Shown: in pieces, positions 41,225 through 45,712 of the stretch
Layout of the letters: every line of letters begins with the position of its first letter
Numbering within the stretch: the stretch's first letter is position 1
NCBI GenBank assembly: GCA_009692425.1
Contig: SHZF01000033.1
Location: 1 to 48,009, forward strand
Origin: Myxococcales bacterium
GTDB taxonomy: Bacteria; Myxococcota_A; UBA9042
DNA length: 48,009 nt
Direction: 5' to 3'
Program-made: the position numbers and the translations under genes
Notes under the pieces: generated by a model
Told to the model about the DNA's origin: nothing
Database searches by the model: none
What the model saw: only the letters and a program-made list of their open reading frames with translations

Positions 41225-41968
41225 ATGACGGCAGGAGGGGGCGGCGCGGGAGGGCAGAGCGACGCCACAAGCGCATCCGCCAGCTCCGCGTTGGTTTCTC
41301 CCAGCTCCCTGGTTCCGACCGGCCCGATCGTTCCCACCGGCTCGATCCGCGCCGCCAGGGCACCGCTGGCCCTGCCGCGGGCGTTCGAAGCGCGCACGGG
41401 CGGCTGGGTCGTGCGCCACGTCGATCCGTTCATCTTCCGGGCTCGCTACTTTGCGGCATGCATGGACTGCACGACGTGCCACGATTGGTGTTGCCAGTGG
41501 GGCTGCGACGTCGACCGCGCCCAGGCGGACCAGATCGTCGCCGAACTGGGCCCCGCGCTCGCGGACCGCTTCGGCGATGCGGAGCAGTGGTTCGGCGCCG
41601 AAGCGACGGTCGACGCCGACTTTCCCAGCGGCCAGTACGTGTCGAGCCGGGTCGTCGATGGGGCCTGTGTGTTCCGCCAGCGCGGTGGTCGGGGTTGCGG
41701 CATCCACGCCCACCTGGCAGCGAGCGGCCTCGACTATCACGAGCGCAAGCCCACGTTGTGTTGGCTGTTTCCCCTGCTGATCGACCGCGGGGTATTGACC
41801 GGCTCCGGCTGGGCGATGAGCGGAGACCTCGTGTGTGCCGGCAGCGGGCCGACGCATTGGCAGGCGCAGCGCGGCGAAGTGCTGTGGCTTTTCGGTCCCG
41901 AACTGGTTGCTGTGTTGGATGAACTGGCCCACCGCGATGCGGCCGCAGCCAGCCTGACGCAGCCCTGA
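41225..41968 (+). CDS. YkgJ-type Cys-cluster (zinc/iron-chelating) protein
   Basis: 247 residues; the first 45 are low-complexity Ser/Gly/Pro and a later start is possible. The core holds CMDCTTCHDWCCQWGC (Cys79, 82, 85, 89, 90, 94), then ACVF ... GCGIHAHL, KPTLCWLFPL and LVC. That is about ten cysteines arranged like the YkgJ/DUF3109 metal-binding family, in which they are thought to hold zinc or an iron-sulfur centre. Cytosolic. It is the first gene of the compact run with two ATP-grasp ligases and a PLP decarboxylase, so it may have a redox or metal role in that pathway. Confidence 0.78.
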   Translation: MTAGGGGAGGQSDATSASASSALVSPSSLVPTGPIVPTGSIRAARAPLALPRAFEARTGGWVVRHVDPFIFRARYFAACMDCTTCHDWCCQWGCDVDRAQADQIVAELGPALADRFGDAEQWFGAEATVDADFPSGQYVSSRVVDGACVFRQRGGRGCGIHAHLAASGLDYHERKPTLCWLFPLLIDRGVLTGSGWAMSGDLVCAGSGPTHWQAQRGEVLWLFGPELVAVLDELAHRDAAAASLTQP

Positions 41969-41988
41969 GCCCGCACCACCTGGAATCC

Positions 41989-43029
41989 ATGCGCACGCCC
42001 CCGTCGGACCGCCTGATCGCTGTGCTGCATCAGGGTGACCCCACGTCGCTCGATCCACCGGTCGTGAACGCGTGCCACGTTCAGCGCGACCTGTGCGAGG
42101 CCTTGGCGGCGCTGGGCTGGCGGACCGAGGCCGTCTTTCTCGATGCCGGCTTTCGTTGGGTGGCGCGGCTGCTCGCACTGGGTCCCGCGCTCGTGTTCAA
42201 CGCCGCAGACCTCGGCTTTCGCAACGACATCACGCTCGAGCCGCACATCGCCGCGGTGCTGGCCGGGACGGGCCTCGAATACACGGGCTCGACGGTGTAT
42301 GCGTCGGCGTTTTCGAGCGACAAGTATGCGTCGAAGGTGTACGCTGGGCAGTTCGGCGTGCCCGTGCCGCGCGTGTGGCTGGCGACGGAGCCCGACCGTG
42401 CAGCCATCGAACTGCCCGTGATTCTCAAGACCCGCATGGGCCACAACAGCTTCGGCCTGACGGCGGACTCCGTCTGCTTCGACCGCCCCGCGCTGAACCG
42501 CGCTCTCGATCAGCTCGCCGACCGCGCGGCGTTGTTCGTGCTGGAGGAGTACATCGACGGCGACGAGGCCGCCGCCGCCTTTCTCGGCAATGCACCTCCC
42601 ACGCCGTTGCCCCACTTCGCCATCGCGTTTGGCCCGACGTTCGCCGGGCGCCCGCGCATTCTCGACTACGCTGCCAAGTGGCAGGAGCAGTCCGCCGCCT
42701 ATCGCCACAGCATGCCCGCGCCGGCCACGTTTGCACCCGAACTGACACGCGCCATCGACACGGCCCTGCTGCGCGTGGTCGCGTTGTTCGGGCTGCGGGA
42801 CTACGCGCGCATCGACGTGCGCATCCGGCCCGACGCGAGTGGCCGGCTCGTGCCGTACGTAATCGACATCAACGCAAACCCTGACCTGAGCCGCGATGCC
42901 GGCTTCTTTCGCATGGCACGCGCCGCGGGCATGGACTACTCCCAGCTGGTTGGCGCCATCGTCGGCGCCGCGCTCGCCCGTCCCAGCCACGTACCCGCAC
43001 CCGGTGCGGCGTCTGCGCTGGCAGGGTAG
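41989..43029 (+). CDS. D-Ala-D-Ala-ligase-like ATP-grasp enzyme
   Basis: 346 residues. N-terminal domain with LVFNAADLGFRND. The segment YTGSTVYASAFSSDKYASK fits the D-alanine ligase family ('tGs...a...dK'). The ATP-binding strand is LPVILKTRMGHNSFG, and the C-terminal metal site is DYARIDVRI ... YVIDINANPDLS, in which Asp, Glu/Asp and Asn bind Mg-ATP. The end GFFRMARAAGMDYSQLV is typical of this family's non-murein members. It probably activates a carboxylate as acyl phosphate and joins it to an amine. It lies 20 bases after the Cys-cluster gene and 15 bases before the second ATP-grasp gene. Confidence 0.87.
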   Translation: MRTPPSDRLIAVLHQGDPTSLDPPVVNACHVQRDLCEALAALGWRTEAVFLDAGFRWVARLLALGPALVFNAADLGFRNDITLEPHIAAVLAGTGLEYTGSTVYASAFSSDKYASKVYAGQFGVPVPRVWLATEPDRAAIELPVILKTRMGHNSFGLTADSVCFDRPALNRALDQLADRAALFVLEEYIDGDEAAAAFLGNAPPTPLPHFAIAFGPTFAGRPRILDYAAKWQEQSAAYRHSMPAPATFAPELTRAIDTALLRVVALFGLRDYARIDVRIRPDASGRLVPYVIDINANPDLSRDAGFFRMARAAGMDYSQLVGAIVGAALARPSHVPAPGAASALAG

Positions 43030-43044
43030 CGGCCTTCCCTGTCG

Positions 43045-44403
43045 ATGGCGCACGCCCCCTCTGCCTACGCAGTCCTGGCCCATGGCATCGACGGGCTGTT
43101 CCTGCCCGACCGGCCCGCGCAGCCGCGCTTCGTGCTGGCGCGGGCCGGCACGCCCGAATTCGCGTGGTCCAGTCTCGTGCACGGAGCGGATCGCACGATT
43201 GGCTACCGGACGACCGCGCCGAGCGCGACGACGGCCGGGTTGCTGGCCGCATCTGACGTCGGCGCCCGCATGCGGGAGTGCGGCGTCGCGGCGCTGCTGC
43301 TTTCGGTGGGCTGCGCGCCCCAGACCCGGCAGTGGGCGCAGCGCGAGGGCGTTGCCCTGCTGATGACCGCGTGGCGCCACCAGCGCCGCTTCGAAGACAA
43401 GCTCCGCTTCGATCGTTTTGCCCGCCAGTTGGGCCTGCCGATGCCCGACCGGGTCCGCGTGGTGCGGGGGATGCACGGCAGGATCGCGCTGAGTGCCCTG
43501 CCGGCCGTGGTGCAGGAGGCCGATTCGCTCGGCGGCGAGGGCACCTGCTTTGCACGGACCCCGGCGCACGCCCAACAGCTCGCCGATGCGGGCGCGTTCG
43601 CTCCCGGCCGTCGTGTGCTCGTGCGGGCCTGCGAAGACGGGGTGGCGTACGGCGTGACGCTTTTCGTGGGGCCGGGGCGCGTGGAGCTCTCTGCCGTGCG
43701 GCGCCAATGCTACGCGCCCACGGCCGACGGCACGCCGCTCGCGTTCATGGGCGTGCAGTGGTGCCCGAGCGCATCGGTGCCGTGGCTGGGCGCGGTGCAT
43801 CCTGTGTTGGCGCGGCTGGGCGCGGGGCTGCATGCCGCACGCTATTTCGGCTTTGCGAACATTGACTTCCTGCGCTGCGACGACGGCCGTGTGGTGCTGA
43901 TCGAGTGCAACGCCCGCATGTCGGCGGCGACCCCGCAACTGCTGCGCCACCACGACCTCGCCGGCGGCATCGACCTCGGCGCCCGCTATCTCGATGGCCT
44001 GCGCCGACGCGCGCGCTGGCCCGCGGCGCTCAACGTGAGTGCGCTGCCTGCCACGACGTTTGCCGGCGCCACGCTCGACCTCGTGAGCTCCCATTCTGGC
44101 GTCGTGGCCCACGTGCCGCGGGCGGGCCGCTGGACTGGCCACAGCGGCCCAGGGACCGGCAAGAGCGGCTGCTGGCGCTGGCTCGGTGCCGACGTCGCGG
44201 ACCCGGCGACCCCCGGCGAATTCGTGGTGGTGCCGCTGGCCCAGCTCGGCGAACAGGTCGAGGCCGGCCAATCGATCGCGACCGTACTGGCATCGTGCCC
44301 GCTGTTTGACCAGCGCGGCAGGTTGTTGCCCGACGCGCGCGCGCTCCACCGCCTGCTGCGGCCCGAACCTGCCCACCTGGAGCCTGCCGATGCTGCTCGA
44401 TGA
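43045..44403 (+). CDS. Second ATP-grasp ligase of the cluster
   Basis: 452 residues. The N-terminal 110 residues are an unrecognised preATP-like domain. FEDKLRFDRFARQLGLPMP begins the ATP-grasp core, VVQEADSLGGEGTCFA replaces the usual ATP-binding loop, and ANIDFLRCDDGRVVLIECNARM carries the metal-binding Asp, Glu and Asn. A C-terminal extension of about 100 residues includes GQSIATVLAS, reminiscent of biotin-carboxylase-type lids. It differs clearly from the preceding ligase, so the two probably make different bonds. Its last 14 bases overlap the start of the decarboxylase gene. Confidence 0.8.
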   Translation: MAHAPSAYAVLAHGIDGLFLPDRPAQPRFVLARAGTPEFAWSSLVHGADRTIGYRTTAPSATTAGLLAASDVGARMRECGVAALLLSVGCAPQTRQWAQREGVALLMTAWRHQRRFEDKLRFDRFARQLGLPMPDRVRVVRGMHGRIALSALPAVVQEADSLGGEGTCFARTPAHAQQLADAGAFAPGRRVLVRACEDGVAYGVTLFVGPGRVELSAVRRQCYAPTADGTPLAFMGVQWCPSASVPWLGAVHPVLARLGAGLHAARYFGFANIDFLRCDDGRVVLIECNARMSAATPQLLRHHDLAGGIDLGARYLDGLRRRARWPAALNVSALPATTFAGATLDLVSSHSGVVAHVPRAGRWTGHSGPGTGKSGCWRWLGADVADPATPGEFVVVPLAQLGEQVEAGQSIATVLASCPLFDQRGRLLPDARALHRLLRPEPAHLEPADAAR

Positions 44404-45712
44404 CCTCGTCGCTGTGCGCGCCCGCACGCTGGCCCTGTTCGACGACCCGCAGTGGCCCGCGCCGGCGCAGTTGGACGCAGTCGTCGATGCCGCGCTGGAC
44501 CGGCGCGATGCCCTCCTCGCGCTGGCCGCCCAGCACCCCACGCCGTTCTACGCGTTCGATCGCGCCGCCCTGCGCCAGGCCCTGCAACGCTTTCGCAGCA
44601 CATTCGACGCCGCCTTGCCGCGCCACGAGTCGTTCTATGCGATCAAGTCAAATCACCACCCGTGGGCCATCGACACGGCGGCCGCAGCGGGGTTCGGCCT
44701 CGACGTGTCCAGTGGCCGCGAACTGCAGTGGGCGCTGGCCCGGCCCGACGTGCCGATCGTGTTCAGCGGCCCCGCGAAGTCCGACGCCGACCTTGCACTT
44801 GCGTTGGACCACGCACCCCGCGTCACTGTGCAACTCGACAGTTTTCGCGAACTGGAACGGCTCGGGGCCCTGACCAGCGCGCGCGACGTGCGGGTGCGGG
44901 CCGGTGTCCGCGTGCACACGCGGCAGCATGGCGCATGGTCGAAGTTCGGCATTGCCCTGTCCGATCTGCCGCGCTTCTGGCAGGCGGCGAGCGCGTGGCC
45001 GGGCGTCGAGTTGTGTGGCATCCAGAGCCACCTGTCGTGGAACCGCAATGCGGAACCCTACGAGCGCGTGCTCGCCGACCTCGGGGCCTGCTTGCGCGTC
45101 GCGTTCACGGCGAGCCAGCGGGGCCAGTTGCGCTTTGTCGACATCGGCGGCGGCTTTCGACCCCACCAGTTGGAGGGCGGGGTGCCCACCGACCATCCGC
45201 TCGCCGCCATCGCGCAGGCCGCCAATGACCACGCTGGCGTCGCCACCCACTTTGCCCACGACTCGATCGCCAAGCCGTCCGTGCCGCTGGAGACCTACGC
45301 CGAAGCCATCGGGCGCGCGTTTGCTGAGCACATCCTGCCCCTGGCCGACGTCGCCGGCTGGACCGAGCCGGGGCGCATCGTATCGACGTTTGCGCTGCAC
45401 CTCGTCGTGCGCGTGGTCGACCGCAAGTCCGCCGGGCTCGTCATCGTCGATGGCGGCACGCACATGGTCGGCTGGGAGAAGTACCTGCACATCCACGCGC
45501 CCGTCATCAACCTGACGCGGCCATCGCGGGCAGCGATCCCGGTCGTGTTGGGCGGCGCGCTGTGCGATTGCGAAGACGTGCTGGGGCGCCATTGCTACGC
45601 GAGCGCGACCGAGGAGGGCGACGTGCTCGTGATGCCGTGGCAGGGGGCGTACACGTGGGCGACGGCGCAGGCGTTCATCCGCGACGTGCCCGACGTGGTG
45701 GAACTGGTGTGA
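44390..45712 (+). CDS. Type III PLP-dependent decarboxylase (alanine-racemase fold)
   Basis: 440 residues from the ATG at 44390, with GGAG eight bases upstream, overlapping the previous gene by 14 bases. The TIM-barrel PLP site is SFYAIKSNHHP (Schiff-base Lys86), followed by GFGLDVSSGREL. The phosphate-binding loop is FVDIGGGFRP, and the C-terminal active-site segment is GALCDCEDVLGRHC. This is the ornithine/diaminopimelate decarboxylase family, which also includes decarboxylases of siderophore pathways. It removes a carboxylate from an amino acid or from a peptide made by the ligases. The substrate specificity segment cannot be read reliably. This gene closes the run. Confidence 0.88.
   Translation: MLLDDLVAVRARTLALFDDPQWPAPAQLDAVVDAALDRRDALLALAAQHPTPFYAFDRAALRQALQRFRSTFDAALPRHESFYAIKSNHHPWAIDTAAAAGFGLDVSSGRELQWALARPDVPIVFSGPAKSDADLALALDHAPRVTVQLDSFRELERLGALTSARDVRVRAGVRVHTRQHGAWSKFGIALSDLPRFWQAASAWPGVELCGIQSHLSWNRNAEPYERVLADLGACLRVAFTASQRGQLRFVDIGGGFRPHQLEGGVPTDHPLAAIAQAANDHAGVATHFAHDSIAKPSVPLETYAEAIGRAFAEHILPLADVAGWTEPGRIVSTFALHLVVRVVDRKSAGLVIVDGGTHMVGWEKYLHIHAPVINLTRPSRAAIPVVLGGALCDCEDVLGRHCYASATEEGDVLVMPWQGAYTWATAQAFIRDVPDVVELV

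Follow-up and report, generated by a model that had tools for sequence, protein, structure and literature searches.

The window analysed here is a contig of 48,009 nucleotides (SHZF01000033.1, assembly GCA_009692425.1) from a Myxococcales bacterium of the Myxococcota_A. Positions 41225-45712 hold four open reading frames (ORFs) on the + strand, separated by 20 and 15 bases and then overlapping by 14. All four are intact, carry the motifs of their families as reported in a preliminary description of this DNA, and show the high GC bias at codon position 3 (0.82-0.88) that is typical of coding sequence. The first (41225..41968, +, 247 aa) encodes a DUF3109-like Cys-cluster protein, with a match to PF11307 at 1.5e-6 that falls under the cut-off, and probably lies outside the conserved unit. 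The other three are the subject of this analysis. ATP-grasp A (41989..43029, +, 346 aa) is a predicted, divergent amide ligase of the D-Ala-D-Ala ligase fold, assigned from PF07478, an alignment with DdlB and an ortholog in the related genome G016. ATP-grasp B (43045..44403, +, 452 aa) is a predicted, very divergent ligase resembling biotin carboxylase and glycinamide ribonucleotide (GAR) synthetase, assigned from AlphaFold, Foldseek and a family profile. Decarboxylase D (44390..45712, +, 440 aa) is a pyridoxal 5'-phosphate (PLP) enzyme of the alanine-racemase fold (type III) that forms a new clade, as assigned from Pfam, a tree, its residues and a structural model.

D has the sequence elements of a type III PLP decarboxylase. 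It matches the Pfam domain Orn_Arg_deC_N at 8.8e-27 and the C-terminal sheet domain at 8.8e-8, and K86, the ring-stacking H214, the phosphate loop G253-255, E326-R329 (EPGR) and the catalytic C392 are conserved in its family. The PLP-binding Lys86 (codon 44645-44647) is invariant across that family, Cys392 (codon 45563-45565) lies within a CDCED loop, and the PLP site is intact. The AlphaFold model (predicted local distance difference test score, pLDDT, of 91) is closest to the solved folds of diaminopimelate decarboxylase (DAPDC) and N-citrylornithine decarboxylase. Among the Foldseek matches listed, FigC has the top TM-score (at most 0.75), with DAPDC and D-ornithine/D-lysine decarboxylase just behind. 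The DAPDC LysA shares the fold and gives the best sequence-profile matches, but D lacks the residues specific for diaminopimelate: in place of the substrate-binding Arg (IRPALY) and the CE[ST]xD loop it has DGGTHMVGWEKY and CDCED, and it scores 130.6 bits on TIGR01048 against a cut-off of 297.9.

The 24 full-length D proteins form a single clade with 100/100 support and a stem of 1.22 in a tree with 35 proteins of the LysA/ornithine decarboxylase (ODC) type, some of which have long branches. Rows for SbnH, FigC and BtrK were not part of this tree, and the placement of D relative to them comes from profile, loop and fold comparison only. Myxobacterial D is nested among the D proteins of the phylum of the Parcubacteria metagenome-assembled genomes (MAGs), where deeper branching is moderately supported (81/85). 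This nesting is consistent with transfer between phyla.

The loop around the catalytic Cys bears on the likely substrate. It reads CTPHD, CTPRD, CTPDD or CLPED/CMPED across the family and CDxED in myxobacteria. The third residue after the Cys is His or Arg in most D proteins, Glu in five loci (the window's among them) and Asp in three, while an acid directly after the Cys (Asp393) is found in the myxobacterial branch only. An Asp on the specificity helix is not evident in D, and the family carries a GWE[KR] helix motif. Comparable loops occur in SbnH (CTPKD) and FigC (CMQHD), which together with AcsE are the citryl-amino-acid decarboxylases of the staphyloferrin B, rhizoferrin and achromobactin pathways and share with D both the fold and the conserved PLP Lys, His, GGG, EPGR and Cys. 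They differ in their partners, which are synthetases of the nonribosomal-peptide-synthetase-independent siderophore (NIS) type rather than ATP-grasp ligases, and in the GWE[KR] motif seen in D. Alanine-racemase-fold decarboxylases that act on conjugates have been described; in SbnH and FigC the residue three past the Cys has an observed or modelled contact with the citryl group of the conjugate, while in lysine/ornithine decarboxylase (L/ODC) and arginine decarboxylase (ADC) an Asp beside the Cys binds the side-chain amine (PMC7857480). The likeness of loop and fold to SbnH and FigC favours, without proving, a conjugate as the substrate of D. For the myxobacterial branch, Asp393 and Glu395 in the Cys392 loop suggest that the distal group of this substrate is cationic, i.e. 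amine-bearing.

The two ligases depart from known families to different degrees. A has the C-terminal domain of D-Ala-D-Ala ligase (Ddl; PF07478 at 2.6e-15) and shares the fold and Mg-ATP site of these enzymes. However, it scores 84 bits on TIGR01205 against a cut-off of 245.65, and Trp231 (codon 42679-42681) takes the place of the Tyr in the YEAKY loop when aligned with DdlB. B falls under every Pfam and NCBIfam cut-off; its ATP-grasp matches in Pfam are all sub-threshold, and solved carbamoyl-phosphate synthetases are matched only weakly by profile. With eight homologues as input, AlphaFold gives a model of B (pLDDT 82) that matches biotin carboxylase (Foldseek E 1.8e-17) and GAR synthetase over the full length; an E287-C-N289 motif, as expected of acidic and Asn Mg ligands, is conserved. 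On the strength of the model, membership of B in the ATP-grasp superfamily is confirmed. B also shares the general biotin-carboxylase-like fold of L-amino-acid ligases (BacD type, LAL_C2), although it has no Pfam or NCBIfam match above cut-off. The architecture of these ligases is seen in the ATP-grasp protein that accompanies D in loci of the Desulfobacterales type and in some of the Parcubacteria type.

The association of D with ATP-grasp ligases recurs in distant bacteria. In G016, an uncultured Myxococcales MAG of the same family, A, B and D are contiguous with order and strand kept (47.6, 38.8 and 54.9% identity), and a further locus (L025) encodes identical A, B and D proteins. In Sorangium cellulosum So ce26, B and D are adjacent and A is not beside them. 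In the Parcubacteria-phylum genome G641, genes for a double ATP-grasp protein, B and D follow in that order and overlap. Across the Parcubacteria MAGs and their phylum relatives, the partner of D is B, the double ATP-grasp protein (Ddl-like in its C-terminal half) or both, or else a different ATP-grasp gene (F7). Relatives of sulfate reducers show a related form: in the phylum of a Desulfobacterales MAG, almost all loci with sufficient flanking sequence combine a SpeD-like gene (PF02675), a GNAT gene (PF13480), an ATP-grasp gene of the L-amino-acid-ligase type and D. The GNAT gene also stands beside B and D in three Parcubacteria-phylum loci, which ties the two layouts together. In total, an ATP-grasp gene adjoins D in 24 of 25 D-clade loci (in the one left, L106, the match is weak), compared with 0 of 14 LysA/ODC-type loci searched with the same queries. 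This control set comprised matches from Rufibacter, Hymenobacter and similar bacteria (about 26% identity), which were rejected as D because they are LysA/ODC-type proteins with CE[ST]xD loops, most of them beside an aspartokinase-like gene.

The distribution of D is patchy and accessory. Scanning of genome contigs gave no matches with a single D sequence but did so with a two-row alignment. The clade was found in two of 52 genomes of the window's class, one of 241 in Sorangium's class, nine of 380 in the phylum of the Parcubacteria MAGs and 12 of 297 in that of the Desulfobacterales MAG; a second match in Sorangium's class (G446) falls outside the clade. Within the window's class, A, B and D are present in exactly the same two genomes, where A scores 684-705 bits as against 159 or less elsewhere. 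B has a strong match in only two of 379 genomes of the phylum; in genomes of Sorangium and of the Parcubacteria phylum, its family profile reaches E-values of 1e-51 to 1e-240. Searches of plasmids gave no match to B or D.

Several loci have further neighbours. Upstream of B and D in Sorangium, at the position held by A in the window, lies a gene for a 550-aa protein (L026:6989-8641); a by-eye impression of an N-terminal nucleophile (Ntn)-type acyltransferase found no Pfam, NCBIfam or PDB support, and no claim is made for it. Adjoining A-B-D in G016 (L022:11525-15577) is a gene for a 433-aa protein with a repetitive WDC/SDC-rich end. It is flanked by a gene for another small protein of secreted type on one side and one for a radical SAM protein (PF04055) on the other, and the 433-aa product may be a repeat protein modified by radical SAM chemistry. 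In two loci (L109:10301-16997 and L110:7148-14000), the SpeD-GNAT-ATP-grasp-D operon stands beside a citrate-synthase-family gene, a lysine-2,3-aminomutase gene, two tandem Ddl-like ATP-grasp genes and a gene for a histone-deacetylase-fold protein (GNAT-fused in L109), which suggests a larger pathway around it. In two Parcubacteria MAGs (L027:1358-10168 and L028:3444-11167), the D locus lies beside MurG-like genes and one for a protein weakly like MurL (E 0.008), with FtsW- and MurD-like genes also in L028. These neighbours hint at a link to the cell wall in that lineage.

The Cys-cluster gene does not share this pattern. Its product has six Cys at residues 79, 82, 85, 89, 90 and 94 (41459-41506) but no counterpart at E<=1e-6 in G016, where A-B-D is present. 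Seven further genomes of the class give weak matches (best 4.6e-10), and a D of the new clade is missing from all seven. In addition, a gene for a beta-propeller lipoprotein (PF09826, 37648-41217) stops 7 bases before the Cys-cluster gene, and these two genes may form a unit of their own. Because homologues are missing from G016 and scattered and weak elsewhere, and because the upstream gene is so close, the Cys-cluster gene is probably a neighbour of the system and not part of it. The four-gene operon of the preliminary description was rejected accordingly: of the four-gene neighbourhood it proposed to look for in relatives, only the three genes A-B-D recur. For these three the proposal of a small conserved pathway of ligases and decarboxylase is upheld, with homologues standing as neighbours in G016, Sorangium and the Parcubacteria phylum.

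Since the genes recur side by side in unrelated bacteria, A, B and D very probably make a small molecule together. Tentatively, and with a probability that falls just short of even, we read A-B-D as a compact, patchily distributed cassette in which ligation comes first and D then decarboxylates a side-chain-linked conjugate, yielding a small decarboxylated pseudopeptide amide. The two ATP-grasp ligases would use ATP to activate carboxylates and join small acids or amino acids by amide bonds, and D would take off one alpha-carboxylate to leave a pseudo-dipeptide or pseudo-tripeptide. PLP decarboxylases require a free alpha-amino and a free alpha-carboxyl group on one carbon. If D follows ligation, as we infer, the new amide must therefore sit on the side chain and leave both alpha groups free, an arrangement like that of N-citrylornithine or of gamma-glutamyl substrates. 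The proposed type of substrate is modelled on those of SbnH, FigC, AcsE and BtrK.

A number of points weigh against this proposal. Asp393 beside the catalytic Cys is also compatible with an enzyme that decarboxylates basic amino acids in their free form. The ligase partners of D differ by lineage, so that products may differ as well, and A is not a neighbour of B-D in Sorangium. Neither a transporter nor a resistance gene marks A-B-D as a natural-product cluster. Most D loci come from MAGs, and the Fisher p for adjacency of ATP-grasp genes and D (1e-9) is overstated because the 25 loci are related and not independent.

The best-surviving alternative, doubtful but to be taken seriously, reverses the order: D would turn a free basic amino acid into a building block of diamine type, and A, B or both would then couple this to a carboxylic acid or amino acid. 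Asp393 is placed beside Cys392 as in L/ODC and ADC. The Desulfobacterales-type loci include a SpeD-like gene, from a family in which some members are ornithine and arginine decarboxylases (PMC10407285). There is also a precedent in the fungal E-64 clusters, four-gene units in whose assembly route polyamines are coupled and which combine amide ligases with a dedicated PLP decarboxylase supplying amines, although these use different gene families, count an ANL enzyme among their ligases and form the warhead with an oxygenase. Nevertheless, most members of the D family have Thr, Leu or Met at the position of Asp393, and most combine an SbnH/FigC-like loop with the lack of a basic-amino-acid signature. 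D is also distant from both ODC and LysA in the tree.

A role in primary metabolism, with A as the cell-wall D-Ala-D-Ala ligase and D as a diaminopimelate or polyamine decarboxylase, is improbable. The folds of A and D match those enzymes, and two Parcubacteria loci adjoin MurG and other cell-wall genes. However, the window's genome has its own canonical LysA (508 bits, cut-off 298, compared with 131 for D), G016 has a canonical Ddl separate from A (263 against 74 bits), and A has Trp where the Ddl loop has Tyr. The presence of A-B-D in only two of the 52 class genomes also indicates that it is not essential. No Ddl in the window's genome exceeds the TIGR01205 cut-off, a level that a Ddl passes or comes near in most of the relatives tested. 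This gap is probably one of assembly (96% complete, 137 contigs), and it leaves a small opening for A in the Ddl role. Membership in a known primary pathway, which the preliminary description named as an outcome that would tell against its proposal, is countered by the separate LysA in the window's genome and the separate Ddl in G016, but not by the Ddl content of the former.

We consider very unlikely a metal-chelating product, siderophore or otherwise, akin to vibrioferrin or staphyloferrin, for which the Cys-cluster protein would handle the metal. Vibrioferrin biosynthesis also pairs an ATP-grasp enzyme with a type III decarboxylase, and the D loop resembles those of SbnH and FigC. Against this, an IucA/IucC-type (NIS) synthetase is found in none of eight genomes searched that carry the D family, no siderophore receptor or transporter was noticed in the loci examined, and the Cys-cluster gene is not co-inherited with A-B-D. 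The chelator suggested in the preliminary description is left unsupported, and its comparison with vibrioferrin holds for the chemical logic of ligation and decarboxylation of a conjugate and for nothing beyond that. A butirosin-like route, in which an ATP-grasp enzyme attaches an amino acid to a carrier protein and D decarboxylates it in this bound form, has equally little to recommend it: the logic is that of the ATP-grasp enzyme BtrJ and the type III decarboxylase BtrK, a family-level homologue of D, but no carrier-protein gene was noticed beside A-B-D in the window or G016 and, on TIGR03099, D reaches 85 bits as against 478. With no NIS synthetase in the eight genomes and no carrier protein noticed beside A-B-D, vibrioferrin and butirosin are analogies and not memberships.

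The enzyme types are already known, while the D clade and the conserved A-B-D combination appear new. In agreement with the preliminary description, no account of this gene set was found in the open literature, which does not cover subscription journals. It is possible, though on balance rather doubtful, that the D family and its ATP-grasp partners represent an undescribed class of ligase/decarboxylase metabolites (decarboxylated pseudopeptides), probably shared horizontally among myxobacteria, candidate-phylum bacteria of the Parcubacteria type (genome size roughly 1-2 Mb) and relatives of the Desulfobacterales. If so, it would be one of few pathways in candidate-phylum bacteria that are dedicated to a small molecule. 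That a new decarboxylase clade goes together with amide ligases in distant phyla points to a metabolite family that has so far gone unrecognised, for which A-B-D provides a compact three-gene target for heterologous expression. Such a pathway would extend the conjugate-specific alanine-racemase-fold decarboxylases past citrate-based siderophores, and would make a biosynthetic route open to testing in candidate-phylum bacteria with small genomes, about whose own metabolites very little is known.

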